Assembly (NCBI GenBank): GCA_022865215.1
Contig: JALIDP010000003.1
Span: 1 to 50,501, forward strand
Origin: Candidatus Nanohalarchaeota archaeon QJJ-7
GTDB lineage: Archaea; Nanohalarchaeota; Nanosalinia; Nanosalinales; Nanohalalkaliarchaeaceae
Length of the DNA stretch: 50,501 bases
Direction of reading: 5' to 3'
Each line of letters begins with the position of its first letter. Position 1 is the first letter of the stretch. This document shows, piece by piece, positions 18,797 to 50,501 of the stretch. A model generated the notes under the pieces. It worked only from the letters and a program-made list of their open reading frames with translations. It had not been told where the DNA came from and did not search any database. Made by a program: the position numbers and the translations under genes.

Positions 18797-20163
18797 GCCT
18801 GGACAGCCTTTTCGAACCCGATAACGTTGCGATAATCGGTGCATCGAGGGAAGGGGGAAAGGTCGGTCACTCGATCCTCAGGAACTTCATGGAGGAAGAT
18901 TTCGGGGGCGAGATATACCCTGTGAACCCGGAAGCCGATAGTATCCTGGGCCTGAGATCTTACGAGTCGGTTCTGGATATCCCTGGAGAAGTGGATCTAG
19001 GAGTGGTGACCGTTCCTCCCACCGCAGCTAACTCTGTTATAGAGGAAGCAGTCGAGAAAGGAGTGAATAACCTTATAGTCATCACCTCAGGGTACGGAGA
19101 GATAGGTGGGGAAGGGGTAGAGAGGGAAGAAGAGCTGGAAGATATCCTAGAGGGTTCCGACACCCGCCTGGTAGGTCCGAACTGCCTCGGTGTATATGAC
19201 TCTTTCTCGGGAGTTGATACACTCTTCCTGCCCTCCTACAAGCTGAAGCGTCCACCAGAAGGAGATATCGCGATAGTTACGCAGAGCGGGGCCTTCGGCT
19301 CCGCAGTCATGGATCTCCTGGCGGACATGGAGGTCGGCATATCCCGCTTCGTTAGCTACGGTAACCAGGCGGATGTCACCGAGACAGAGCTCCTTGAATG
19401 GCTGGACCAGGACGATGAGACAGAGGCTATAGCTGTATACATGGAAGGGGTTTCAGACGGTGAAAAATTCCTGGAAAAGGCAAGGAAAGTTACTGAAGAC
19501 AAACCAATAGTGGCACTGAAAGGTGGGAAATACGGATCCGGTAGAGAAGCGGTGAGTTCCCATACAGGATCTCTTGCCGGCAGCTATGAAGTCTACAGGG
19601 GCGTCTTCAGCCAGGCCCGCATCCTGGAGGCTGATAACATCGAACAGCTTTTCGATTACTCCCGGGCACTCGCCTACAACAAACCTCTGGACGGGAGGAA
19701 CATCGCGGTCGTTACGAACGGGGGAGGGTTCGGGGTTCTGACAGCGGATGCACTAGAGGAACAGGGACTGAAGCTGGCGGAATATTCTACATCAACAGAA
19801 GAGCAGCTTCGAGAGGCCGTCCCAGACTATGGTAATGTCGAGAACCCGCTTGACCTGGTGGGGGACGCAGATTCCAAGAGATATGAGAGATCTCTCGAGG
19901 TCCTGGAGAAAGACCCGAACATCGACGGTATCATAGTAATCCCGCTTCTACAGCCACTGCCGCTGGAATCGGATGTTATAGATGCGATAGTGAACTTCAA
20001 TGAGGGGTACACTGAGCCTCTAGTAGTCTGTATGACCGGAGGGGAATACACGGGAGTTCATGCAAAGAACCTGGAGAAGAACGAAGTAGCGGCTTACTCC
20101 TCACCTAAGAGAGCTGTAGACGCTATGGAGGCTCTTTACAGGTACGGTGACTGGAGAAGCTAG
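18793..20163 (+). CDS. ADP-forming acetyl-CoA synthetase alpha subunit
   Basis: CoA-binding N-terminus 'FEPDNVAIIGASREGGKVGHSILRNF', 'LVGPNCLGVYD', 'AIVTQSGAFGSAVMD', catalytic 'SSHTGSLAGSYEVY'. Overlaps the beta-subunit stop by 4 nt. Confidence 0.92.
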   Translation: MSLDSLFEPDNVAIIGASREGGKVGHSILRNFMEEDFGGEIYPVNPEADSILGLRSYESVLDIPGEVDLGVVTVPPTAANSVIEEAVEKGVNNLIVITSGYGEIGGEGVEREEELEDILEGSDTRLVGPNCLGVYDSFSGVDTLFLPSYKLKRPPEGDIAIVTQSGAFGSAVMDLLADMEVGISRFVSYGNQADVTETELLEWLDQDDETEAIAVYMEGVSDGEKFLEKARKVTEDKPIVALKGGKYGSGREAVSSHTGSLAGSYEVYRGVFSQARILEADNIEQLFDYSRALAYNKPLDGRNIAVVTNGGGFGVLTADALEEQGLKLAEYSTSTEEQLREAVPDYGNVENPLDLVGDADSKRYERSLEVLEKDPNIDGIIVIPLLQPLPLESDVIDAIVNFNEGYTEPLVVCMTGGEYTGVHAKNLEKNEVAAYSSPKRAVDAMEALYRYGDWRS

Positions 20164-21002
20164 TTAAGCTCGTTCTCTATGGCATCGGATACAGAACCGT
20201 AAGAAGATTTCTGGATCTGTATCCCGTTCACGAACACTGTCGGAGTCCCCTCCACTCCCACGTTCCGCCCCTCGTTGAAGTCGGAACGGACCTCGGACTC
20301 CGCATCTGAGTCCTGCATACATGTTTCGATATCACTTCCGGCGACTCCTTCTTCTCCTGCCCAGGAGACTATCCTGTCCTGGACGTTCGATTCAGAAAGA
20401 TCGTCCTGGTTCGCGAACACCTTATCCTTCACGTTCCAGAACGCATCATTACCGCCCTCACGGAACACGCACTCCATGGCTACCGCGGCCTCGTCCGACC
20501 ACGGATGCATATCCCCTGCATAGGTCAGCGGGAAGTCCTTCCATACAATTTTTACCTCTCCAGAATCCACATACTCGCTTTTCAGCCTGGAGGTGACTGA
20601 CTGATCGAACGATCGGCAAGCAGGACACTCGAAATCCTCGAAAAGAGTTACCCTTACTGGCGCGGAACTGTTCCCGAGTACAGGTTCTCCTCCGTTCGAC
20701 ATATTCACAGCATCGACAGTCCTGCCTGTCGGCTCGGAACCAGAATTGAACTTGATAACACTAGAGGATGAAGATATATAGACGAGAGCCGCCAGTATCC
20801 CTACAGCGAGTACAAGAGTTGCTATGGTCTCTGATGACAGGGAAAATCCCTTCTCAGACGAATCAAGCTGGTTCAGCTCCCTCTTCAGTTCGTCTCTCTC
20901 GTGTGAAGAGATCTTGTCATCGTGCTGATCCAGGATGTGATCTATCTCCTCCTCTCTGGAATCGACTTCCCGACCACACTTGTCACACTTCATACCTCTC
21001 AC
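20160..21002 (-). CDS. N-terminal zinc-finger / TM / extracytoplasmic DsbA-like thioredoxin-fold protein
   Basis: 'MKCDKCGREVDSREEEIDHILDQHDDKISSHERDELKREL', one TM, then 'VTLFEDFECPACRSFDQSV...WKDFPLTYAGDMHPWSDEAAVAMECVF...GTPTVFVNG'. Confidence 0.88.
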   Translation of the reverse strand: MRGMKCDKCGREVDSREEEIDHILDQHDDKISSHERDELKRELNQLDSSEKGFSLSSETIATLVLAVGILAALVYISSSSSVIKFNSGSEPTGRTVDAVNMSNGGEPVLGNSSAPVRVTLFEDFECPACRSFDQSVTSRLKSEYVDSGEVKIVWKDFPLTYAGDMHPWSDEAAVAMECVFREGGNDAFWNVKDKVFANQDDLSESNVQDRIVSWAGEEGVAGSDIETCMQDSDAESEVRSDFNEGRNVGVEGTPTVFVNGIQIQKSSYGSVSDAIENELN

Positions 21003-22288: not shown

Positions 22289-23173
22289 TTACCCGTTCAG
22301 CTCTGAATCGATGACCGATTCGAAAACGCTGTACGGCTGGGCTCCAACGATCTTCTTCCCGTTAATGAAGACCGTAGGTGTCCCGGTAGCTCCTACTGAA
22401 TCCGCTCCCTGCTTATCTGCGTTGACCTCGTCCATCGGATTATCATTGTCTAGACACTGCTGGATAGCTGATTCGCTCACTCCTTCTTCAGAGGCGTACT
22501 GCTTTATATTATCATAGACGTTGCTCTCGGTTATCTGGTCCTGGTTCGCGAACACCTCATCCTTCACGTTCCAGAACGCATCATCACCGCCTTCACGGAA
22601 CACGCACTCCATAGCGGCAGCACCATCATCTGCCCAGGGGTGAACCCTTTCCGGAAGGGGGAGATCTTTCCATACAAATTTCACGTCTCCTGTATCCACA
22701 TAATTAGATACTATCTGGGGAACGGCGTTCTCCTCGAACCTCTTGCAGAAAGGACATTCAAAGTCTTCATAGATCACCATCGTAACAGGTGCATCTGACT
22801 GTCCGAGTACTGGTTCTCCCTCGAGAGATATCTCGCTCGGGTCTATCGTGTCCTCTACCGCCTCGTTCTGGGTCGGCGAGGGATCATCGTTATTCTGAGT
22901 ATCCTGCTGCGAGGGCTGGTTCTCAGCCTGGACGGTATCCCCTGTCACTCCTGTGAAAGAGTCGATTGTCGACATGAAGAATCCTCCTGCGAAAACTCCG
23001 ATGAGGAAAGCCAGCAGAATCGCGTGGGCCGCCTTCAGCTCGAAGCTGAAGTAGCCTTCAGATCCAGACGGAGAATCACTTCCTGAAGATGAATCTCCGT
23101 GAACCTGCGCCTCGTGGACATGAAGCCCTCTTTCGGAGTCAAAATCTTCTCCACACTCGTTGCAGGTAGGCAT
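22289..23173 (-). CDS. N-terminal C2H2-type zinc-finger / TM / DsbA-like protein
   Basis: 'PTCNECGEDFDSERGLHVHEAQVHG', TM, then 'VTMVIYEDFECPFCKRFEENAV...HPWADDGAAAMECVFREGG...GTPTVFINGKKI'. Confidence 0.9.
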   Translation of the reverse strand: MPTCNECGEDFDSERGLHVHEAQVHGDSSSGSDSPSGSEGYFSFELKAAHAILLAFLIGVFAGGFFMSTIDSFTGVTGDTVQAENQPSQQDTQNNDDPSPTQNEAVEDTIDPSEISLEGEPVLGQSDAPVTMVIYEDFECPFCKRFEENAVPQIVSNYVDTGDVKFVWKDLPLPERVHPWADDGAAAMECVFREGGDDAFWNVKDEVFANQDQITESNVYDNIKQYASEEGVSESAIQQCLDNDNPMDEVNADKQGADSVGATGTPTVFINGKKIVGAQPYSVFESVIDSELNG

Positions 23174-28493: not shown

Positions 28494-28745
28494 ATGGGAC
28501 TGATAAGACCGTTCAAATACACGAACTCAGAGGGGGAGACCTACTTCCTCCACAAGTCGGAGAAAGGTGACAGAACCAACTACTACTTCTCCAAGAATCC
28601 AGAAGGATCGCTGCGCTCCCGTCCAAGCGGGTTCAAGGTGAAGGAGAACCCTCACTCCCACATGCCTTACCTCAAACGTGGCAGGGGAGGTATCCTGGGA
28701 AGTATAATGGAGCTTCTGGGGATGTCCACAGAATCCGGGACCTAG
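28494..28745 (+). CDS. Small conserved-looking basic protein
   Basis: 'NSEGETYFLHKSEKGDRTNYYFSKNPEGSLRSRPSGFKVKENPHSHMPYLKR'; starts 4 nt after the upstream stop. Confidence 0.6.
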   Translation: MGLIRPFKYTNSEGETYFLHKSEKGDRTNYYFSKNPEGSLRSRPSGFKVKENPHSHMPYLKRGRGGILGSIMELLGMSTESGT

Positions 28746-31213
28746 TCTGCACCTATCTGGTTCCTGATATGGGAAAAAGTCCTGATAATTCTTTCTCTCT
28801 CCACATCATCGATATCAGTAGATGTAGTAGTTACCTCCACAGGATTCTGCTGACTCTCCCCCCCTATCTCCTCCTTTATGTATGATACCGTCTGGGTGAG
28901 GTCCTCTCTTTCCTCTGGAGCCCTGCGACGGAACACAACAGCCACTACCGCTGCCGCCTGTACAACCAGGATCAGGAATATAATTTTGTTCAAGAGATTA
29001 TCTCCTATAAGAACCTCTCCAGAAGGGATATCTATGCTGGGTAACGCTCCTTTGAGGGGGTCGCCTCGCGAAGCCACCATCCCTGTGGGGGAAACCGTGC
29101 TGTTCTCCACCGGATCTACCGTTATACCGAAAGCGTACGACTTCCTGTTACCGTCGTGAACGAACACCGGTTCTGCAGTATATGTGTCCTCAGATACGTT
29201 AGGAGATATCTCAAGCTCCAACAGGACCTCTCGGCTCTGGTTCATCTCGATCGGTGACGTGTCGTATTCCAGGTCCTTTATGAAAGGGACATCATCCTCG
29301 ATGACCTCGAAATCCCGGATAGTGGTGAAACCGGTGTTACTTACATACATAGAGATATTCCGTTCTTCTCCCGCATTAGCGCTTACTTTATCCGGGGCTG
29401 TTATGCTTATACTGCTCGGGCGTTCCACCTCGATATCAAAAGATACATCCCCACGGCTGTATGGTTCTTTCGACGCCTCCAGAGTCAGCGAGTGGCTTCC
29501 CTCAGTGTCTGGAGAGGGAACACTCAGGTTGAAGATGCCCTGATCATCCGTTCTCATCTGGTCGACCACACTTCCAGAACGTATTAGGCTTACTGAGGCA
29601 TTGAATACAGAGTTCTCATCCTCATCCCGGACCGTGCCCTGCACCTGAACTGTATCATCGGGATCGTATACCTCTTCCCCAACAGAATACCGGACATCCA
29701 GATTTTCCCGAACTCCTATCGCGTAAGCCCCTTCCCCTTCATCAACGAACAATGCCTCACTTCCCACGTAATTGAACTCAGCTTCCACATTATCCCATGA
29801 ACCCCAGCATTCACCGCTCTCCATATTCCATCCCGTGCATTGGAGGACTTCCATATCCCTCGGATTATCTATATTCTCGGTGCTGTAGCCGAGCGAGAAA
29901 CTCCTGGATTCTGAATCGAGGGCGCTCATATATGCGTAAAGACCTGCCAGCTTCATCCCCGGAACTTCCTCAAGGGACGAGTAGAACTGGTACCTGATAG
30001 GGCCGTCCCAACTATCCACATCCACATCCTCCAGGGAGATACTTGCCGGGAAAGTTTCATGCGGGAATTCCAGTTCCACGTTATACGTTCCTGGGACGAT
30101 AGAAGATGTGTAATCCCCTTTCGAATCTATCTTCCTGACCTCCTTTCCATCGTCCAGAAACCGGAGCACAAAAGGTAACGCATCATCATCCTCTCCACGG
30201 AACTCGCCCTCCAAACGGGCAGGATACTTTATCTTTACCGTCTCAGAGGCCTGGAAATCCTCCCGGGAGAACTCTATATCGAGATCGTAGTTCCCCCTCG
30301 ACATGTTCGGGAGGAAAACGGAGAATGTTGATGCCCCGTCCCTGGAAGTCTCCTTCACAGAGACGTTGTCCAGATCGTCCCCATCGAGCGAGAAATCAAT
30401 ATCGTCTTCAACGACTTCGATACTCTTCCCCCTGTTTGCAGCCTCTACATCAACCTCTACCGCTTTTCCGTCGAAAATTGTCGTATCGGATACAGTTGCA
30501 TCGAACTGAAGACGCTCTTCAACTTTAATCTCTCTCGATAATGACTCTGTAGTTCCATTATGATACGCCTTTAAAGTCGGTTCGTAGTTCCCCGGCTCAG
30601 AAGGCATCTTCATAGACATCTTCCATTCGTTATCATTGCTATTGTAGCCTTCAATCAAATCTCTGGTCTCTCCACCGATCGATACAGTAAAATTAACATC
30701 TTCACCTATATCGATATCCGAATCTCCTACACCCTTTAAGACGCTAAAATACAGTTCCTCTTCCTGCTCTGTATAATAAACATCCTTCTCCAATCCCTGT
30801 ATCAAATCTGTCTTCAGGACTTCAACACTGAATTTCGATGATTTGAAATCAGTGGTTTCGTTAGTGCAACCTACGAAGAATGAGTAGTCCCCTGCAGAGA
30901 AATCATCCAATTCTTCCCAAAAATCTCGTACATTTTCCCCGTCTATGAAGTATTCCGCATTGGTTTCATCCTCAGCAATAAGTGAGAGAGAATCCTTGCT
31001 ATCTCTAGAAAAACCATCATGTGATATGTTCTGGACATAAACCTCATATGTCCCGGAAGTTGGCCCGCAGGTAGTTTCTATACGGAAATCCTGATCATTC
31101 CAGATTGTTTGAGAAGGTTCCACTGATACATCTGATACTGTCACAGCTGCTCCTAAAGTAGAGAAAAAAATACATATCCCCATAAAAAGGGCTGCACGCT
31201 TCATGGAAGCCAA
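28742..31213 (-). CDS. Surface protein, multi-domain Ig/CARDB/carboxypeptidase-regulatory-like, C-terminal TM and short cytoplasmic tail
   Basis: Signal peptide 'AALFMGICIFFSTLGAAV', 'VQVQGTVRDEDENSVFNASVSLIRSG', 'NISMYVSNTGFTTIRDFEV', TM 'IIFLILVVQAAAVVAVVFRRR'. Confidence 0.75.
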   Translation of the reverse strand: MASMKRAALFMGICIFFSTLGAAVTVSDVSVEPSQTIWNDQDFRIETTCGPTSGTYEVYVQNISHDGFSRDSKDSLSLIAEDETNAEYFIDGENVRDFWEELDDFSAGDYSFFVGCTNETTDFKSSKFSVEVLKTDLIQGLEKDVYYTEQEEELYFSVLKGVGDSDIDIGEDVNFTVSIGGETRDLIEGYNSNDNEWKMSMKMPSEPGNYEPTLKAYHNGTTESLSREIKVEERLQFDATVSDTTIFDGKAVEVDVEAANRGKSIEVVEDDIDFSLDGDDLDNVSVKETSRDGASTFSVFLPNMSRGNYDLDIEFSREDFQASETVKIKYPARLEGEFRGEDDDALPFVLRFLDDGKEVRKIDSKGDYTSSIVPGTYNVELEFPHETFPASISLEDVDVDSWDGPIRYQFYSSLEEVPGMKLAGLYAYMSALDSESRSFSLGYSTENIDNPRDMEVLQCTGWNMESGECWGSWDNVEAEFNYVGSEALFVDEGEGAYAIGVRENLDVRYSVGEEVYDPDDTVQVQGTVRDEDENSVFNASVSLIRSGSVVDQMRTDDQGIFNLSVPSPDTEGSHSLTLEASKEPYSRGDVSFDIEVERPSSISITAPDKVSANAGEERNISMYVSNTGFTTIRDFEVIEDDVPFIKDLEYDTSPIEMNQSREVLLELEISPNVSEDTYTAEPVFVHDGNRKSYAFGITVDPVENSTVSPTGMVASRGDPLKGALPSIDIPSGEVLIGDNLLNKIIFLILVVQAAAVVAVVFRRRAPEEREDLTQTVSYIKEEIGGESQQNPVEVTTTSTDIDDVERERIIRTFSHIRNQIGAD

Positions 31214-32229
31214 CCCTTGATCTTCTCCGCAAGCGTCTCCTCGTAGGGATAACCTGTAATATCGGACGCTATGTTCTTGAACTCCCGCGAGGGCTTGATG
31301 TATGGTTTGCGAGAGACAAGGGGCTCGTTCTCAAGTATGCTGCGCTGTACATGGTTATGTTTTGGGATCACCCCTATTACAGGTATATCAAGCACTTTCT
31401 CCACCTCCTGGATCGAAAGGTGGTCCTTGGGGGAATCGTACATGTTTACAACCACCCCGATGACTGACTTCCCTTTCTCCCTAGCCTCACGGTACAGGCG
31501 GTAGGTATCCGAAAGCGATGGAATCTCTGGGGTAGTGACGAAAAGGAGTTCATCACAGTTCTCAACCACCCTTTCCACCGGCCTCTCGTATCCCGGAGGA
31601 GAATCGATAAGCACCGTGTATTCTGCAGGAATCTTGCCTAGTGCCTCTTGTATATCGCCGTCGAACTTCTCCGTAGCGAGTGATGTCGGGATAACTCTAA
31701 GTCCCGAATCCTTGTCGATCTGCATCGCCGACATAATATGGACATCCTGTTCGACCACTTGCTGGAGGGACGTAGGAGTAGTGTGTATACCCAGATGTAT
31801 CCCCAGGTTGGGCATCTCTGCATCCGCGTCCATCACTATGACTTTCTCACCGAACTCCATCAACGCCACACCGAGATTGAGCGTCACAACAGTCTTCCCT
31901 ACTCCGCCTTTACCGGAGACTATCCCGATGGTCCGGGGTTTGCTCAGTTCCTTGACTTCTTCCTCCACAGAGCTATCCACATCTTCCCTGGAAACCTCAC
32001 CCGATACATCCTCTCCCGATATCGCCTTTTCACCGCGTTCCCGTCCCTCTGCAAGTATACAAACACTGGACCTTCCAACCTTATGGGTATTTATAGCGCC
32101 CTGCTCGTCCATCCTCTCTATCTCCTTCGATATCTGGTACTCCTCCTCATCCAGCTGCCTCGCTATCTCCGATATGGACCTCGGCTTCTCCTCCAGAGAA
32201 TCAAGAATACGCTCCTGGATGTCACTCAT
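31201..32229 (-). CDS. MinD/ParA-type ATPase with N-terminal winged-helix domain
   Basis: N-terminal wHTH 'RILDSLEEKPRSISEIARQLDEEEYQISKEIERM', deviant Walker A 'SGKGGVGKTVVTLNLG', 'VLIDSPPGY', and C-terminal 'LAEKIKGWLP'. Confidence 0.88.
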   Translation of the reverse strand: MSDIQERILDSLEEKPRSISEIARQLDEEEYQISKEIERMDEQGAINTHKVGRSSVCILAEGRERGEKAISGEDVSGEVSREDVDSSVEEEVKELSKPRTIGIVSGKGGVGKTVVTLNLGVALMEFGEKVIVMDADAEMPNLGIHLGIHTTPTSLQQVVEQDVHIMSAMQIDKDSGLRVIPTSLATEKFDGDIQEALGKIPAEYTVLIDSPPGYERPVERVVENCDELLFVTTPEIPSLSDTYRLYREAREKGKSVIGVVVNMYDSPKDHLSIQEVEKVLDIPVIGVIPKHNHVQRSILENEPLVSRKPYIKPSREFKNIASDITGYPYEETLAEKIKGWLP

Positions 32230-32276
32230 GTGCTAAAGTACGTTCTGCCCTTATTTATGTTTTTTTACATGTAAAA

Positions 32277-33029
32277 TCAGATTCCGCGCGTCATAATCAC
32301 ATGAAGAACTCCCCTGAGGTAGTCTATAGAACTATCAAATACCGGGACAAGGGGATGGAACCTATCAAACTCGTGTTCTCCAGTATAATAATACCTGCCC
32401 TCCGAATCAAACATTTCAACCGCCGCATCCTCGGATTTATCTATCTCGGGGCTGTAAGGTACTGCCACCTGTTCGTACCTCCCTGGGCTTTTGACCTGGA
32501 CCTGGCTGAACCTGCGGTCCGCCCGGCCCTCCACCGATAGGAAGAAAGACCCGACCCCTTCAGGTACAGCTATACCAAGGATCAGATCTTTCCCGTTCGC
32601 CCGGGACGAGACAACTTCGAAACCCTCCTCCCTCCCCACTGTAGATGTTCTGAACCGGTCCCTTACCACCTCTGAGGATTCAGGGCCGTATCGAAGAGTT
32701 ACGGACGCGTTCAGACTGCCATTATCTGGAGGACTGTAGAAGGCCAACTCCCGGGTAGCCCCTGACCCTGGTTCGAGTACGAATTCGTCCGACCACTTGC
32801 CGGCCCGGAGCTCGTCACCCACCACTTCAAGATGGAACCTCCCTACAAAGCTCTGGCTCCCTGTATTCATCGCTTCAACCAGCCAGACTTTCGGGCTCTC
32901 ATCACCCCCTGACTGGTTCAAGATATCTAGACTGGCGTTGAGAGAAGGCTGGACCTGAACGCCCACCTCGAATGCGACAGCAGAACTCGCCAGGAGGATA
33001 AACAGGGACAGGAGTACAATCCGTTTCAT
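32277..33029 (-). CDS. Secreted CARDB-like protein
   Basis: Signal peptide 'IVLLSLFILLASSAVA' and beta-domain repeats. Confidence 0.6.
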   Translation of the reverse strand: MKRIVLLSLFILLASSAVAFEVGVQVQPSLNASLDILNQSGGDESPKVWLVEAMNTGSQSFVGRFHLEVVGDELRAGKWSDEFVLEPGSGATRELAFYSPPDNGSLNASVTLRYGPESSEVVRDRFRTSTVGREEGFEVVSSRANGKDLILGIAVPEGVGSFFLSVEGRADRRFSQVQVKSPGRYEQVAVPYSPEIDKSEDAAVEMFDSEGRYYYTGEHEFDRFHPLVPVFDSSIDYLRGVLHVIMTRGI

Positions 33030-33033
33030 CCTA

Positions 33034-33459
33034 TCACGTTAATCCATGTCTCTCGATGAACAGGTCTCCCCTGTAGTAGCCCTGGGAAGCGTTTTCAGGT
33101 TCGAACACCAGGGAAATGTTCCTAGCACCTCCTGATTCTATCCGGACGCTTTCATCAGGATCAATCGAGATATACTTGCTTATATTCCCCTCCACACTGA
33201 ACCGCATCTCCACAGGACCATCACCAGGATTCTCGAGCTCCAGCTGGCGTTCCGAACTCATCGCACCTCCTGGAAGAGTCCCGAAACCTATAGGCCTTTC
33301 ATCGGCAGCGAGCCCAACAGTAAGGTCTCCTCCAGAACCGTTTACCGTGCCTTCAAGGACGTAACTCTCCTCCATACGATAGCTTTCCCCTGCAATAAAC
33401 ATCCCCGCCGCAACCAGAGCTATCAGAACGGGGATCGCCACCAGTATACGTTTATCCAT
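33034..33459 (-). CDS. Small membrane-anchored beta-sandwich-like protein
   Basis: N-terminal TM, 'LENPGDGPVEMRFSVEGNISKYISIDPDESVRIESGGARNISLVFEP' (NEW3/CARDB-like). Confidence 0.6.
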   Translation of the reverse strand: MDKRILVAIPVLIALVAAGMFIAGESYRMEESYVLEGTVNGSGGDLTVGLAADERPIGFGTLPGGAMSSERQLELENPGDGPVEMRFSVEGNISKYISIDPDESVRIESGGARNISLVFEPENASQGYYRGDLFIERHGLT

Positions 33460-34372
33460 CCTGAACCACCTTCCACACCACGAAGCTCATAACGGCCAGA
33501 AGGAATAAGAGGATTACGGTGGAAATCGGCATCCCTTTCTCCTCTCTATCACGGCGCTCCACCGCCCTTACAGATTCTTTCAACGAGATATCGGCTGTTT
33601 CACTGACTTCCCCCGTACCGTAGTCCGCAGCCACCCGGGCCTTGAACTCCTCCCTCCCTGCCGGGACCGACGTGGAGAACTTTCGGGTCTCACCCGGCGG
33701 GACCACCTTTTCATCCCTGCCGATATCCTCGGTACTGTTCTCTCCTTCAATCTTGAACCGTGTCTCTACCTCCATCGTAGCAGTCCCATTGTTGTAGAAA
33801 GAGGCCACCAGCTTCTCATCAGCCAACCTGGTCGACCCCGGTCTTAAACCTATAATTTTCCCTGATCTTGTAACCTCCCCTGGAACCCTGAATATCACGG
33901 GGAAGGAAGACGTTGATAGAAGGCTTAAACTACCACTGCCCTCTATATCAGGATCAGGGGTTATCAGGAGGACATGGTACCCCGGCTCCATATCGCCAGG
34001 GATATTGACAAGGAACTTGACATCCTTCCATCGAACGAATTCAGAACCTGCAGCACTCAGTTCCTGGTCCTGTTCTTCTATAGCCCCCTCACCTCTCAGC
34101 ATCTCCACACATTCAGCACACGACTGTGCGGAGAAGCTCCCTGACTTGGATGATTTGAACCGGTTGAAATCTCTTAATGAACCTCTCTCAGTCCTTATAT
34201 CTATCTCAACTTTCTCGGAGGAGAGCACACGGAAATCACCATAGAACGTTGATCCCGGATCCTGAACCCCTTCTTCAAGATGGGTAGGAGAAACAGCGAA
34301 CTGCAACGAGGCCCCTGCAGGCACCACCAAACCCAGTGCAGCGATTAACATAGCCAGGCGGACATCGAACAT
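33452..34372 (-). CDS. Secreted single-TM protein, COG1470/CARDB-like
   Basis: Signal peptide, 'FAVSPTHLEEGVQDPGSTFYGDFRV', C-terminal TM 'VILLFLLAVMSFVVWKVV'. Confidence 0.65.
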   Translation of the reverse strand: MFDVRLAMLIAALGLVVPAGASLQFAVSPTHLEEGVQDPGSTFYGDFRVLSSEKVEIDIRTERGSLRDFNRFKSSKSGSFSAQSCAECVEMLRGEGAIEEQDQELSAAGSEFVRWKDVKFLVNIPGDMEPGYHVLLITPDPDIEGSGSLSLLSTSSFPVIFRVPGEVTRSGKIIGLRPGSTRLADEKLVASFYNNGTATMEVETRFKIEGENSTEDIGRDEKVVPPGETRKFSTSVPAGREEFKARVAADYGTGEVSETADISLKESVRAVERRDREEKGMPISTVILLFLLAVMSFVVWKVVQDG

Positions 34373-43732: not shown

Positions 43733-44080
43733 CTAGGACAACAGCTCCTTGTTGGTCTTCTTCGCTTCATGGTAAGAGTTTTCAGATATACTGGCGGTCC
43801 GGTAAGCCTCCTCCAGGTGAGAAAGCAGGCTCTCTACCCTCTCCTCATCGTTTATTATCTCCTGACGTCTCTTCTTCTCCGATAGCCACTCCAGCAGTTC
43901 CTCGCGTTCCCGGTTCTGTTTCTCAACCTCCATCATCATCTCTATAAGCTCAGGTTCCTCAATCTCAGCTTCCTGGATTTTCTCCATCTCGTTCTCCAGT
44001 ATCTTCTGGACGCGTTCTTCCATACGGATAGGTTCGCAGCCCTTGCTTAAGTTGTTTGTGCCCGGAGAGGCTGAATCCAT
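43733..44080 (-). CDS. Short helical protein related to the adaptor-like domain
   Basis: 'ELIEMMMEVEKQNREREELLEWLSEKKRRQ' resembles the C-terminus of 42447..43730. Confidence 0.6.
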   Translation of the reverse strand: MDSASPGTNNLSKGCEPIRMEERVQKILENEMEKIQEAEIEEPELIEMMMEVEKQNREREELLEWLSEKKRRQEIINDEERVESLLSHLEEAYRTASISENSYHEAKKTNKELLS

Positions 44081-44088
44081 CCCAAGAA

Positions 44089-47000
44089 TCAGGTCATGTT
44101 ATCGATCCGGGTCTCCAAGGACTCGACGTACGTCTCGGCCGACGTGTAGTTCGCCGTTTTCAGTTTGTCTTCCGCCAGATCGAGCTCGGTCTCGACATCG
44201 TAGGTATCAACACCCTCTTCCTTGAGATCCTCTATCTCCTCTCTCAGATCGTCTATCCTCTCCTTGATCTCCAGGTACCTGTCCAGCTCCTCGTCGTCAA
44301 GCGCGAACGGGCTGTGCAGGGGCGGTCTGAAGTCGATGAACCATGGACGGCCCTGGTTGTACTCCGGATTGTGGAACAGACCTGTACCGATCTCCAGTCC
44401 TGGAACTCTCTCCGCATACTTCTTACCGTGCTTGGAGCGTACACGTCTCACGTCTCCGCTGTACTTGGTCCTGAGCTGGATCTCGTTCGCGATGTTCGCC
44501 CTCAGCTCGCCCCGGAAGTCGGTCAGCACCTGCGAGATGAGGAACACTCCTATACCCCACTTCCTGAACTCCCGGGCCGCCTGCTCCAGCTTCACGTAAC
44601 CTCCCTTCCCGCCGTACTTCGGAAGAAGCCTGTGGACCTCGTCGTAAATGACCAGGCTCTGCAGTTCTGTGGTCTCGTCCAGCGGCCCCTCGAATATCTT
44701 GTCGATGGTGGAACGCACGAAGTCATCCAGTTCTCCACCTTCAAGGTCACCGATCTCGAAGACCGTTATCTCTCCATCCCTCTGCAGTGCTTCCCAGACA
44801 TCGATCTCCTGGTCAGGGTCGTCCACCTGTACGATAGTGGTCTTGAATCCTGTCGGGGCATCCTCCGGATCCAGATCGTAGTCAGGGAACATCGACGTAA
44901 GTTCATCGAGCTCGTTCGGCTTCAGCATCCCTGTCCACTGATCCGTCGGGTCGAACACTACTATCGATACATCTCCCCGCTTCAGAAGCTGCTCTGACAC
45001 TACCTGGGCAGATACCGACTTGCCGGAACCGGTACCTCCTGCCGCGATGCTGTGGACCTTGAGCTGTTCTATGTCCATGTAGGCAGGTACGTCTCTCTCG
45101 GCGATGTTTCCAACCCTTATAGTGTCCTCTCCCTCCTGGGGCAGCTTGCTCATGTCGAGCGGCGCCACGTACCGCTCCTGTGCCTTCTTCTTGGACCGGT
45201 AGTAGTTCACCCAGCGGACACCGAGTATCAGTAGCGGCAGCAGGACGAACAGTACTATGTAGGTTATCGGGTTGAAGGCCGCCATCCTTAGCATCACCAG
45301 GGGCAGGGGTAGAGAGCTTACCTCGAAGCTCTCCGCCGCAGACGCCTCCTTCTGGAAGTTAGCGTAAGAGGCGTTCGCTGAAACGACGTATCGGCCTTCA
45401 GGCACGTCTTCAGGGATCGACATCCTCTCCCGTTTTGTCTCTGTATCGTTGACCGCCACCGTCCTGGATATCTGGGTCACCACGTTATCCGGCTCGTTGA
45501 GCGGATGGACTTGGAAGTCCATGGTTATATCTCTTACAGAGACGGTCTGGCCCCTGTTCTTCAGGGTGTACTCGAAGGTGAAGTTTCCTCCAGGTTCTGT
45601 AGCTATGGACAGTGGATTGACAAGGACGTCCAGAAGTGCCTCCTCCTCAGGAACTACCTCCACGCTGACAGGAAGTCTGTGCGTTACGTCCTCCGAGTCC
45701 ACGAGTACGCTGCCGGTGTAGGTCCCGACACCGGTGTCCTCTGTCGCGGTACCACGGATCAGTATCGTCCTTGTCTCTAGGGGCGGAATCGTGATACTGT
45801 TCTGCTGGAGGGTCAGGACGTTGAACACCGACCCCTGCAGGGAGATGCTTGCGCTCTTCTCGGCATCCTCATTATTGCTTATAGACGCCGAGAATGTCTT
45901 TGTCTGTCCCGGATTGAGCTGTAGATTTACGAGCGAGGACCTTACCTGGAGTGGGACCTGACCTGAAACATCTGGACCAGGTTCTGTCGGCTCGGTGGGC
46001 TCGGTAGGTTCTACAGGAGGTATCTCGATCTCGTCCCCTGCTCCGCCTCCACCGCCTCCCGTACCTTCACCTTCACCTGTACCGCCGCCTCCACCATCGC
46101 CCCCACCACCTCCACCAGCTCCTCCTTCTCCACCTCCTATATCTCCTCCACCACCTACAACGTCTTCACAGTCGTTAGGTGATACGTCGTTGCTCTCCCC
46201 GAATTCGGAGTCGCAGGCTCCGTCTCCCACGAAGTAGGGTCCGATAGCATATGCCACACCATCTGATATATCCTCATCATAGCTGTATATCCAGCCCTTA
46301 TTGTCGGTCAGGGAAGCATCACTGACCTCTGTCCACGAGGAGTTGCACTGGGTGGTGCCCTCGCTCGCCGGCACCCATGAGTCACACCTGAACATTCGGG
46401 AGTTGTCGGTGTCGAAATCTGAATCTTCCGGTATCCGGACGAACACATGTGTATCGTTCCCAGAGAGGTTGGACTGCATGTAGACAGCGTTACTCGTCCC
46501 CGGTCCGCCAGCCTTCCCGACAGCTATATCTCCGACTCCCACCGGATCTATGATCTCTTCCGATACGGAGATATCTGTCTGCCGGAAGTAGCTGTTGAAG
46601 AACTGGTACTCGAAGTCATAGGTCCTCTGTCTCACTGTCGAGTTGTATTCCCCTGTGGAGGCGTTGGAACTGAAGTTCTGCAGGACCGTGCCTGTAGGAG
46701 GGTCCTTGAACAGGAACTGGCTATCTATAGGCTCAGGAGGATCGTTTTCCACATCCTCAAGGTCCCTCGCAACTCCGCTTATCCCTATCTTCCGGAATAT
46801 ACTGAAGTCTCCGTCTCCTGTCTGGCAGTTACTGGAGATATCGCAGGCTGTCAGGTTGATCTCATATGTACCTATATCGTCCGTGTCTGTGAAGTTGTGC
46901 TGGAAACTGTACCTATCCCTGTAGATATCCATAAGGGCCGGACTGAAGCTGGAAGTCCCGTTCGGTGTCAATATACTTCCCTCTACCGAGGAGGTATTCA

Positions 47001-50000
47001 ACACGCCTGTCTCTGTCACGTTGAACTCTGCGGTCACCTTTGAACCCTCAGAGACCTCTATAGGTAGCGATACATCGACAACAGGAGAGGAATTATCCGC
47101 CATAACCACTGAATCAGAGGTCACATCTGTCCTGACATGGTGCCTGGACCGGTCGTCCACTCCAGTGTGATCTGCTGTAACATTCAGGTCGTACGCGTAA
47201 GCCTCGGTCCCGTTGGCCTCCAGAGTAAGGTTCCATAGGTTCTCTGAATCGTTGAAAGCCTTCTCCACTACTTCCAGATTACGGGTCTCGGTCTCGTTCT
47301 GAAGGGCTGCATCGAAAGCGACGTTATCTCCGATATGCCTTAAATCGTCTCCTCTACCGAAGCTCACGTTCACTCTTGCCGAGAAGTTATCGCCTGTCTG
47401 GAGACCCGTCCTCCTATCACTAGCCCGGGGTTCGGTGATATCGGTGAAGAACGGTACCGCAAGGAGTTCCAGATCAGTTGTCTCTGTCCTGGTAGCGTTG
47501 GGATGGTCTGTGCTCAAAGTTCCAGTGAACGTTGTATAGTCATCCACCATTGGCACGCTCACAGTGACGTTCGTCCGGTTTACTCCGTTGAACGGTAGAT
47601 AGAAGGATGGATGCGGTATATCGATATACTGGGATATATTACCGGTCTGGGAGGCATCCACCCTTATACCATCGTTCCCGGTGTTCTCCATTTCTACGGT
47701 CTCCATAACTTTCTCCTCACCTGACAGCACAGCTTCCGAAACCGATCCCGGGCTCTGCACCCAGGATATGTTTATGGGTACGTTCACCGTCAGGGTATCT
47801 CTCCCAACTTCCTCTCCCTCCGATCTGAACGAGAGGTTGCCAGTGTAGATATCCTTCTTGATACCCTGAGGAACTTCTATCTCGAGATCTATTTCCCGGG
47901 TATCAGCAAGGGAAAGGTTGAACCCTTCAGGTTCCTCTGTCACAGTGAAGTTCTCGCATGGAACCCCTGAATCACATGTTACAGACACGTTCGAAACATT
48001 GACGTTCCCTGTCGATTCGATATCGAACGATACAGTGTCATTGGCGCCTTCTTCTATCTTTGCGGTCGGGGAGGAAACCGCATCCAGCCTCCTGTTCGGT
48101 TCCACCTCTACAGTGACCTCGGAGAGATTGTTCCCACGGGAGTCCAGCAGGTCGAGCCATTCAGTCGTCAGATTGAACGAATGGTTACCCGGGGATGTAC
48201 CGGATTCTACTGAAAGCTCGATGGAGGCTTCCTCAGAGGCGTGCCCCAGCATATCCCCTATACTGATATCGGTCACGTTGGTGTCGAGTACCGGGGATTC
48301 CTCCTCGACGGTCAGGTTAGTTGAATTGGTCCGGGAGGGCCCGGTGTTGTTGACCAGCGGCCTGATGGATATATTCTGGTCGGAGATAATCGTTACGTTG
48401 TCTGCACTGACCGTTCCCAGAACTGGTTCTATCTCGGTCGTTCCTTCGGCACTCAGGTTTATCGGGTCGGTACACCTATCTGATGTCAGTCCTGTAGTCG
48501 GGTTGGTACTGTTGGCGCATATCCTGAGGGCGTGTGTGCCGTTCACTGTGGCGCTGTAATCATCGGTGTAGGTTGAATTGACGGTGTTGTTCATCATCGA
48601 TACTGAGGTGCTGTTACCCCAGCTCCTGTTGACCGGCCGGGTGACGTTTATCCATGCCCTGTCTACATCGAAGTTATCCGTTATCTCAGCAGATATGTTG
48701 ACCTCTCCATGGAGCACCTCGAACCGCTGTGGATCCACCTCCACATCAGTGATGGATGGTCCGACATCCGTGATGTTCATCTTCAGCGAAGTAACCCTCT
48801 CCGGAGGTTCTCCGATAGTCACATTCCTCTTGATTATGTCCACAGAGTACAGCCCTTCTGTCACATCCTCCGGCACACTGTATTCGACCGTGACATTGCG
48901 GCTGGCTCCTGGAGCGAGGTCGTATGCGTCTGTACCTGGAGCACCGAACGGGTATGATTCTGTGAAGGCGGTACCGTTACCGTTCTCGAATATCTGCAGC
49001 GGTATCTTCACGTTACCGATGTTGCTGGTCGATATGTTCCCGATGAACCCTGATTCTCCGGGCTGGATCAGAAGTTTTCCGAACGTGGAGGGATCATGGT
49101 TCCAGGACCCGTTAACAGGCACTGTAGCGTTGAGGAGGATATCATCATCTCCTGCATTATCAGTTTCCACCCTCAGCTTTGTCCAGTAGTTCCCTGGATC
49201 CTGGTAGGATGGAACATCTATCTGCACGTCCGAGGAGAAGTTATCGCCTGGAGACAGTGTGCCCTGCTCGTCCGGGAACACTGTTAGAGAGCAGTTGGGA
49301 CAGTCAGAGAACAGGTTGCCTCCCACGGTGTCTATCTCGAGCTCCTGCAGGTCCTCATTACCGTAAGATACTGTGGTCGTAGTACCAAGAACGGTTTCGA
49401 GCCCGTGCGGGGCGGTAGCGTTTATCGGGTCATCCCACGGCACCTCTTCCTCGTTGACCTCTCTGGCCTCTATCCTCGGCTGGGGATTGGAAGATACTGT
49501 TATCTCGGAATCGTTCCTCTGAGTATCGACCGTCCTGTCCGGGTTCCTCCACACGGCATGTACAGATTTTTCTATTATCTGAGGTAATGTTGCTTCCGGC
49601 ACATTAACCGTGAAAGTCCAGTTACATGAATCTCCGGACTCTATCGAACCGCATTCCTTCCGTGTATCATTGTAATACACGGTATCTATCGGGCTCTCGG
49701 AATGGCTGAGGTTTAATACATAGGCAGTGGCGTTTCCGGTATTCGTAAATCTAGCTTGAGCGGTGAAGTTATAACCCGATTCCTGGGTTATACCTGTTGC
49801 AGTCTCCGCCTGCGGTTCCAGCCCCACGTCTATCGAGACCTGTCCGAATACTTCGAGGTAAGACGCGAACTGCCTGGCCGTGTTCTTCTCCGGTTTCTTG
49901 TCCTGGGCGTATACCTCTATAGAGTGGTTCCCACCGGTACTTGGAGTGTAATTGGCGGCGTAAACAGCTCTTTCACCGGAGCCGAAGTCCCTGACCGGCG

Positions 50001-50501
50001 TCATATTATCCATCTTCACTATGCGGTGGGTCCCGTTCTCCAGAGACACGTTGGCCCATACCTCTCTTATACCGTAGTTATCGGTCACGTTGGCCCGGAT
50101 CTCTGTTTCATCTGTGTTCGCCTCGAGGTCCCGGTCGGGCTCTGCGGTGGCGTTCCTTATGACCGGAGCCTCGATATCCTTCACCTGGTACCTGAAACGG
50201 GTGACCGGTTCCTCTGCAGTGTAGAACTGGGTATCATTGTCCGGTATCTCCAGCTCGAACGTGATATTTCCTTTCTGCTGTGGTTCGAACAGAGTGCTGT
50301 TCAGTCCGGATGAGTTGGTCATGAACGAGTCTATCAACGTGTAACTATCCTCGTCTTCCCACCGGGAGGAGAGGTTGAACCTGTATCCTGAGATACCTCC
50401 TCCTGAGTCAAGGTCCTCCACCTTCCCTACCACGGGAAACTCGCCCGGATAGGGTAGAACTGACTCGTTTTCAGGATTCACTATCCGGGCTCCTGAAAGA
50501 C
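44089..50501 (-). CDS. Giant surface protein / TM / C-terminal HerA-FtsK-like ATPase fusion; N-terminus beyond window
   Basis: The frame is open through the window end upstream of the GTG-called start at 50481. Extracellular CARDB/NEW3-like repeats, TM 'PITYIVLFVLLPLLILGVRWVNYYRSKKK', Walker A 'AGGTGSGKSVSAQ', Walker B 'LVIYDEVHRLLP', 'KWGIGVFLISQVLTDFRGEL'. Confidence 0.9.
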   Translation of the reverse strand, partial: LSGARIVNPENESVLPYPGEFPVVGKVEDLDSGGGISGYRFNLSSRWEDEDSYTLIDSFMTNSSGLNSTLFEPQQKGNITFELEIPDNDTQFYTAEEPVTRFRYQVKDIEAPVIRNATAEPDRDLEANTDETEIRANVTDNYGIREVWANVSLENGTHRIVKMDNMTPVRDFGSGERAVYAANYTPSTGGNHSIEVYAQDKKPEKNTARQFASYLEVFGQVSIDVGLEPQAETATGITQESGYNFTAQARFTNTGNATAYVLNLSHSESPIDTVYYNDTRKECGSIESGDSCNWTFTVNVPEATLPQIIEKSVHAVWRNPDRTVDTQRNDSEITVSSNPQPRIEAREVNEEEVPWDDPINATAPHGLETVLGTTTTVSYGNEDLQELEIDTVGGNLFSDCPNCSLTVFPDEQGTLSPGDNFSSDVQIDVPSYQDPGNYWTKLRVETDNAGDDDILLNATVPVNGSWNHDPSTFGKLLIQPGESGFIGNISTSNIGNVKIPLQIFENGNGTAFTESYPFGAPGTDAYDLAPGASRNVTVEYSVPEDVTEGLYSVDIIKRNVTIGEPPERVTSLKMNITDVGPSITDVEVDPQRFEVLHGEVNISAEITDNFDVDRAWINVTRPVNRSWGNSTSVSMMNNTVNSTYTDDYSATVNGTHALRICANSTNPTTGLTSDRCTDPINLSAEGTTEIEPVLGTVSADNVTIISDQNISIRPLVNNTGPSRTNSTNLTVEEESPVLDTNVTDISIGDMLGHASEEASIELSVESGTSPGNHSFNLTTEWLDLLDSRGNNLSEVTVEVEPNRRLDAVSSPTAKIEEGANDTVSFDIESTGNVNVSNVSVTCDSGVPCENFTVTEEPEGFNLSLADTREIDLEIEVPQGIKKDIYTGNLSFRSEGEEVGRDTLTVNVPINISWVQSPGSVSEAVLSGEEKVMETVEMENTGNDGIRVDASQTGNISQYIDIPHPSFYLPFNGVNRTNVTVSVPMVDDYTTFTGTLSTDHPNATRTETTDLELLAVPFFTDITEPRASDRRTGLQTGDNFSARVNVSFGRGDDLRHIGDNVAFDAALQNETETRNLEVVEKAFNDSENLWNLTLEANGTEAYAYDLNVTADHTGVDDRSRHHVRTDVTSDSVVMADNSSPVVDVSLPIEVSEGSKVTAEFNVTETGVLNTSSVEGSILTPNGTSSFSPALMDIYRDRYSFQHNFTDTDDIGTYEINLTACDISSNCQTGDGDFSIFRKIGISGVARDLEDVENDPPEPIDSQFLFKDPPTGTVLQNFSSNASTGEYNSTVRQRTYDFEYQFFNSYFRQTDISVSEEIIDPVGVGDIAVGKAGGPGTSNAVYMQSNLSGNDTHVFVRIPEDSDFDTDNSRMFRCDSWVPASEGTTQCNSSWTEVSDASLTDNKGWIYSYDEDISDGVAYAIGPYFVGDGACDSEFGESNDVSPNDCEDVVGGGGDIGGGEGGAGGGGGGDGGGGGTGEGEGTGGGGGGAGDEIEIPPVEPTEPTEPTEPGPDVSGQVPLQVRSSLVNLQLNPGQTKTFSASISNNEDAEKSASISLQGSVFNVLTLQQNSITIPPLETRTILIRGTATEDTGVGTYTGSVLVDSEDVTHRLPVSVEVVPEEEALLDVLVNPLSIATEPGGNFTFEYTLKNRGQTVSVRDITMDFQVHPLNEPDNVVTQISRTVAVNDTETKRERMSIPEDVPEGRYVVSANASYANFQKEASAAESFEVSSLPLPLVMLRMAAFNPITYIVLFVLLPLLILGVRWVNYYRSKKKAQERYVAPLDMSKLPQEGEDTIRVGNIAERDVPAYMDIEQLKVHSIAAGGTGSGKSVSAQVVSEQLLKRGDVSIVVFDPTDQWTGMLKPNELDELTSMFPDYDLDPEDAPTGFKTTIVQVDDPDQEIDVWEALQRDGEITVFEIGDLEGGELDDFVRSTIDKIFEGPLDETTELQSLVIYDEVHRLLPKYGGKGGYVKLEQAAREFRKWGIGVFLISQVLTDFRGELRANIANEIQLRTKYSGDVRRVRSKHGKKYAERVPGLEIGTGLFHNPEYNQGRPWFIDFRPPLHSPFALDDEELDRYLEIKERIDDLREEIEDLKEEGVDTYDVETELDLAEDKLKTANYTSAETYVESLETRIDNMT

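Follow-up and report, generated by a model that had tools for sequence, protein, structure and literature searches.

The window analysed here, a 50,501-bp contig of Candidatus Nanohalarchaeota archaeon QJJ-7 (JALIDP010000003.1), ends inside a gene for a giant surface protein that is joined through a single transmembrane (TM) helix to a cytoplasmic HerA-like ATPase. The architecture is already published, as that of the SPEARE or giant surface proteins of nanohaloarchaea and DPANN archaea. Judged from its sequence, the protein combines an adhesin-like ectodomain, two β-sandwich domains, one TM helix and an ATPase with the complete catalytic set of HerA. What appears to be new with respect to the SPEARE literature is its set of neighbourhood partners and a helical hairpin shared among them: the gene recurs together with one for a cytoplasmic coiled-coil protein, often with one for a second surface protein that is anchored in the membrane and, in some lineages, with MinD. 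That it travels in this company suggests a multi-part cell-contact machine, and we lean, by a little, towards a conserved symbiont–host contact machine that has a SPEARE-type ATPase ring as its base. The giant protein is a published suspect for the hold of DPANN symbionts on their hosts, discussed mainly on its own and filed under type IV secretion. Its near-constant coiled-coil partner, the second surface protein and the shared hairpin make up a defined set of proteins for study, including in SVXNc and BNXNv, two nanohaloarchaea that can be cultured.

The window is the whole of contig C28 of a 753-kb, 34-contig archaeal genome that is 78% complete. The giant gene is a single open frame of 2136 codons on the minus strand, which enters at the contig end (50499) and reaches its stop codon at 44089. 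A preliminary reading, made from the sequence only, had placed an uninterrupted frame of more than 2130 aa at 44089–50501; the frame and its coordinates are correct, but the gene lies on the minus strand and lacks its start. Since the contig ends inside the gene, the true N-terminus is missing; the gene is incomplete on its 5′ side and 2136 aa are its visible part. Giant genes of this kind repeatedly overrun contig ends (the window at 50501; also G113:C13, G102:C16, G086:C13 and G106:C45), and their true lengths and their frequency in metagenome-assembled genomes (MAGs) are thus probably underestimated.

The ectodomain spans about 1735 aa of sequon-rich β domains. Pfam matches NEW3 (NPCBM_assoc, 3e-9) in this part and DUF87 and HerA_C towards the C-terminus. 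The TM helix is the only strongly hydrophobic segment (mean Kyte–Doolittle 2.28), and N-glycosylation sequons number 80 ahead of it and two behind it, a split consistent with an N-terminus outside the cell. The NEW3-like, sequon-rich ectodomain and the positive-inside topology of the sequence-only reading are thus both upheld. The membrane-proximal domain pair is conserved, with a mean column identity of 57% in an alignment of 16 relatives (A3), and an AlphaFold2 (AF2) model of this region shows two β-sandwiches, the TM helix and the ATPase. The join is a general one: a TM helix stands immediately ahead of Walker A in 102 of the 109 homologous frames at the loci examined, which come from many separate assemblies, and the join is also present in the closed genomes of SG9 (CP012986), SVXNc and BNXNv. 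Neither chance nor misassembly can account for it, and the giant is one gene, as first supposed.

The ATPase domain matches DUF87 with 37.6 bits, against a curated cut-off of 23.2, and all 21 aligned family members match this profile too. The alignment of these 21 ATPases contains 60 invariant columns; the P-loop motifs reported earlier, Walker A GGTGSGKS and Walker B LVIYDE, are present and, like AREFRKWGIGVFLISQ, invariant or near-invariant among the relatives. When the profile of this alignment was compared with solved structures, HerA was the best match (1.6e-14), DotL (2.6e-4) and FtsK were weak, and VirB4 was not matched at E ≤ 0.01. The AF2 model of the ATPase (predicted local distance difference test score 88) gave the same order by fold, with HerA entries at ranks 1–35, followed by VirB4 at 36, TcpA at 38 and FtsK at 47. 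By profile and modelled fold, the ATPase is thus nearest to HerA, ahead of FtsK and VirB4, which agrees with the class assigned to it at the outset.

In Sulfolobus HerA, residues K154, D176, E356 and R381 are each required for full activity, and R381 works in trans, between subunits (PMC4351679). Their equivalents are all invariant (K, D, E and R) in the alignment of relatives. An invariant arginine finger of a kind that acts between subunits argues for a ring. The giant shares with HerA the RecA-like core and these four catalytic residues but is not simply a HerA: it has no Pfam match to the HAS-barrel, falls far under the cut-offs of the NCBIfam HerA equivalogs (29.5 against 800 and 20.1 against 970) and carries a membrane-anchored ectodomain. 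The same genome encodes a separate canonical HerA of 697 aa on contig C11 and NurA on contig C34, which indicates that the giant is not the repair enzyme; a signature that reads DPTDQW in the giant is DPHGEY in this ordinary HerA. Like FtsK/SpoIIIE, the giant would belong to a class of membrane-tethered hexameric motors, although FtsK stands below HerA in both the profile and the fold rankings. FtsK is not known to carry a giant ectodomain.

SPEARE proteins were named in nanohaloarchaea by Hamm et al. in 2019, who took one or more ectodomain laminin-G domains as a criterion, and a SPEARE protein was found by proteomics to be synthesised in culture (PMC6642349). Reva et al. in 2023 described giant immunoglobulin (Ig) arrays, a TM, an ATPase and a coiled-coil tip (PMC10266531). 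In the same paper, the cytoplasmic domain was reclassified as a VirB4/TraG-like ATPase and the restriction-enzyme domain of 2019 was withdrawn; the withdrawn domain is the present ATPase. The sequence-only reading had regarded the fusion as unusual, and in this it was mistaken, since the family had been published in both papers.

The cytoplasmic part of the window protein is 42–44% identical over about 370 aa to SVXNc_0300 (44%), BNXNv_0298 and SG9; the SVXNc_0300 frame was recovered at exactly 9,409 aa, as published. One family member reaches 11,259 aa in a single frame (L025–L026, G073:C2) and exceeds SVXNc_0300, whose 9,409 aa had been published as the record for cultivated archaea. Like the published SPEAREs (SVXNc_0300, BNXNv_0298, Nanopetramus SG9 SPEARE 1 and the Nha. 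antarcticus SPEARE), the window protein has a giant Ig/NEW3-type ectodomain that makes up the bulk of its length outside the cytoplasm, a TM near the C-terminus, a conserved ATPase and a helical tip in the cytoplasmic C-terminal region, and a coiled-coil gene downstream. Pfam shows no laminin-G domain in its visible 2136 aa, the N-terminus lying beyond the contig. It falls in a different part of the tree, in a large deep clade together with Aenigmatarchaeota, while the published nanohaloarchaeal SPEAREs belong to the other deep clade. Two genomes, G073 and G113, hold one member of each.

A scan of the collection found 300 relatives. Among the best 80 of these, from which lineage labels were taken, nearly all are assigned to DPANN lineages or unclassified archaea. 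The exceptions (L045, L056 and L109) are filed under Halanaerobiaceae and Heimdallarchaeota MAGs, but are 3–4 kb MAG contigs nested among DPANN sequences in the tree and are probably mis-binned.

In SVXNc and BNXNv, a second ATPase gene adjoins the giant gene. The short ATPase of SVXNc, SVXNc_0299, is a reduced version of the giant: it keeps the same ATPase behind a hydrophobic N-terminus, an Ig-like ectodomain and a TM. Four separate loci have giant and short ATPases in tandem, and in each the two ATPase domains are sisters (support 98–100), which fits subunits of one ring. In the window, the genes downstream of the giant encode instead a 115-aa protein and a coiled-coil protein, and no second copy of the ATPase was found elsewhere in the 78%-complete genome. 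Most relatives from other lineages also lack an adjacent second ATPase, and the tandem therefore does not define the family at large. The features of the window are collected in Table 1.

Table 1. The giant gene, its domains and motifs, and its neighbours in the window (all positions in nucleotides of the 50,501-bp contig).
Feature	Position	Strand	Remarks
Giant SPEARE-type surface ATPase	44089..50499	-	2136 aa visible; N-terminus beyond contig
Distal ectodomain, aa 1-1440	46180..50499	-	NEW3-like β domains; 5.3 sequons per 100 aa; differs among relatives
Gly-rich linker, aa ~1441-1510	45970..46179	-	44% Gly; separates distal from proximal ectodomain
Membrane-proximal β-sandwich domain pair, aa ~1505-1730	45310..45987	-	Conserved; alignment A3 and AF2 model m230420f5723b
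Single TM helix, aa 1741-1759	45223..45279	-	Followed by RSKKK
Cytoplasmic HerA-like ATPase domain, aa ~1761-2068	44296..45219	-	By sequence and fold comparison
Walker A GGTGSGKS	45016..45039	-	Lys aligned with HerA K154
Walker B LVIYDE	44638..44655	-	Glu aligned with HerA E356
REFRKWG motif	44554..44574	-	Second Arg aligned with HerA arginine finger R381
ATPase C-terminal helical region, aa ~2069-2136	44092..44295	-	By alignment and AF2 model
115-aa protein	43733..44080	-	C-terminal hairpin motif, aa 69-115
Coiled-coil partner, 427 aa	42447..43730	-	Hairpin motif, aa 284-338
MinD/ParA ATPase, 257 aa	41691..42464	+	Convergent with coiled-coil gene
Coiled-coil protein, 372 aa	40527..41645	+	Directly upstream of MinD
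Second surface protein, 1994 aa	34373..40357	-	N-terminal TM/signal, NEW3 domains, C-terminal TM aa 1891-1909
Helix-turn-helix (HTH)-MinD/ParA protein, 342 aa	31201..32229	-	Possible further component

The most constant neighbour is the coiled-coil protein. A homologue lies downstream of the giant gene in 70 of the 74 DPANN loci with at least 1 kb of downstream sequence, one per locus and on the same strand in 69; in SVXNc and BNXNv it comes directly after the tandem ATPase gene. Where the downstream sequence extends to at least 3.5 kb, a homologue of the second surface protein (about 1,970 aa) follows in 29 of 54 loci, and MinD occurs within the same stretch in eight. Synteny with MinD, for which the sequence-only reading had proposed a check, is thus real, but only in a subset of relatives. 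The MinD gene is convergent with the coiled-coil gene both in the window and in its sibling L046. Where the window has its 115-aa gene, this sibling has a 98-aa gene whose product also carries the hairpin motif. A frameshift that split the 115-aa and 427-aa genes is unlikely, as the sibling keeps the same arrangement (98 and 441 aa).

These proteins are connected by a helical hairpin of about 55 residues. It is present in one to three copies in the coiled-coil proteins, in the 115-aa protein, at the extreme C-terminus of the second surface protein (aa 1941–1994, in its cytoplasmic tail) and twice in a MinD fusion. This fusion is a 452-aa MinD-matching protein from the same operon in another locus (L062:5378–6736). 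None of the reversed decoys was matched at E < 0.01. The coiled-coil partner also matches FlaC_arch in four of 17 members (best 4.9e-7), but unrelated coiled-coil families match equally well or better, so that homology to FlaC/ArlC is no more than possible. No description of the coiled-coil, second-surface-protein, MinD or hairpin associations was found in the literature searched, which was limited to open-licence papers; the SPEARE section of Reva et al. names SVXNc_0299 and the proteasome activator SVXNc_0296, not the coiled-coil gene (PMC10266531).

We propose that the ATPase domains would assemble as a ring beneath the membrane, because HerA requires a trans-acting arginine finger and this residue is invariant here. 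On this view, the ectodomains of the subunits would be bundled and bind another cell, and the coiled-coil protein would link the ring to the second surface protein via the shared hairpins. MinD would place the assembly, and ATP hydrolysis would power the passage of DNA or protein through the symbiont membrane where the cells touch. The HerA ancestry tips the choice of substrate slightly toward DNA, by analogy. Cytoplasmic bridges of up to 11 nm have been described between the SPEARE-bearing symbiont SVXNc and its host (PMC11001535), and the protein may act in cell–cell contact and transfer, as the sequence-only reading had suggested in agreement with published proposals. Several points weigh against this picture. 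The ring, the transport and the ATPase activity are predictions, and the AF2 models are of single chains. None of the genes beside the giant was identified as encoding a substrate, a channel protein or a nuclease, and the window copy lacks its N-terminus. The coiled-coil and hairpin regions are of low complexity and prone to false similarity, although the decoys were clean and the synteny is independent of them. The link to MinD, finally, holds for a minority of loci.

A bolder form of this proposal, to which we give rather less than an even chance, is that an envelope machine, so far unrecognised, occurs DPANN-wide, has no relation to type IV secretion and uses SPEARE as its ATPase subunit. 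In such a machine, a coiled-coil adaptor with repeated hairpins would couple a HerA-like ring of giant and sometimes short-ectodomain subunits to the second, roughly 2,000-aa surface protein and to MinD, and the whole would move cargo between symbiont and host.

Two other explanations are about equally improbable. The first is that the protein is a contact-dependent DNA importer, in which a HerA-type motor would pull in host DNA as a source of nucleotides. This is akin to the DNA uptake by SPEARE proposed by Hamm et al., who noted that biosynthetic pathways are absent in Nanohaloarchaeota and speculated on incoming DNA (PMC6642349). The nearest relatives of the ATPase are double-stranded DNA translocases, and NCBIfam gives a weak match to CedD, a DNA-translocating ATPase of archaea (3.6e-4). 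However, no CedA-like channel was identified beside the giant gene, NurA is encoded on another contig, and the region that was read in 2019 as a restriction enzyme is the ATPase itself.

The second is that the ATPase transports nothing, but assembles, positions or mechanically tensions a giant adhesin, while MinD and the coiled-coil protein serve as a cytoplasmic scaffold. MinD-type proteins are known to position surface structures, the most constant partner is the coiled-coil protein and not a channel or an effector, and the shared hairpin joins cytoplasmic tails. The full HerA catalytic set, arginine finger included, is nevertheless kept across DPANN, which is beyond the need of an anchor.

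The published alternative is an effector-injecting type IV secretion system (T4SS), to which the protein would contribute a VirB4/TraG-class ATPase fused with a straw at the surface (PMC10266531); this appears less probable still. The giant belongs to the same P-loop superfamily and is a TM-anchored cytoplasmic motor like VirD4; VirB4 and the conjugation coupling proteins are among its structural neighbours, as the ranks of VirB4 and TcpA and the DotL match show, and family members have weak Pfam matches to T4SS-DNA_transf and TrwB. HerA is nearer, however, by both profile and fold. PF03135, the VirB4 N-terminal domain reported for SVXNc_0299, could not be detected there at E ≤ 1, and the layout of that protein is not that of VirB4. 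None of nine carrier genomes contains PF03135, which is absent from the tandem ATPases too; among the nine are the nanohaloarchaea SVXNc, BNXNv and SG9, which are in culture or have closed genomes. The same nine genomes lack PF04610 (TrbL/VirB6), a profile with limited sensitivity for divergent archaeal forms. The absence of both markers weakens the type IV secretion reading, and membership among the VirB4/T4SS proteins was rejected on this ground, although a lack of Pfam matches is compatible with very divergent T4SS parts. ATPases of the T2SSE family, of archaeal pilus type, are found in all nine genomes and are a separate matter.

An assembly or annotation artefact that joined two unrelated genes, one for a surface protein and one for HerA, might be suggested by the position at a contig end, but is so improbable that it can be dismissed, since independent assemblies and closed genomes carry the identical fusion.

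Some further genes in the window may be connected with the system. The 372-aa coiled-coil protein is possibly a partner of MinD. Past the second surface protein, the stretch 28742–34372 holds further surface or envelope genes, of 823 (with a CarboxypepD_reg domain), 250, 141 and 306 aa, besides the HTH-MinD gene; in L031, homologues of those of 306 and 141 aa occupy the corresponding place. Two DsbA-like thioredoxin-fold proteins are encoded at 20160–21002 and 22289–23173 and are possibly relevant to surface proteins that contain Cys.

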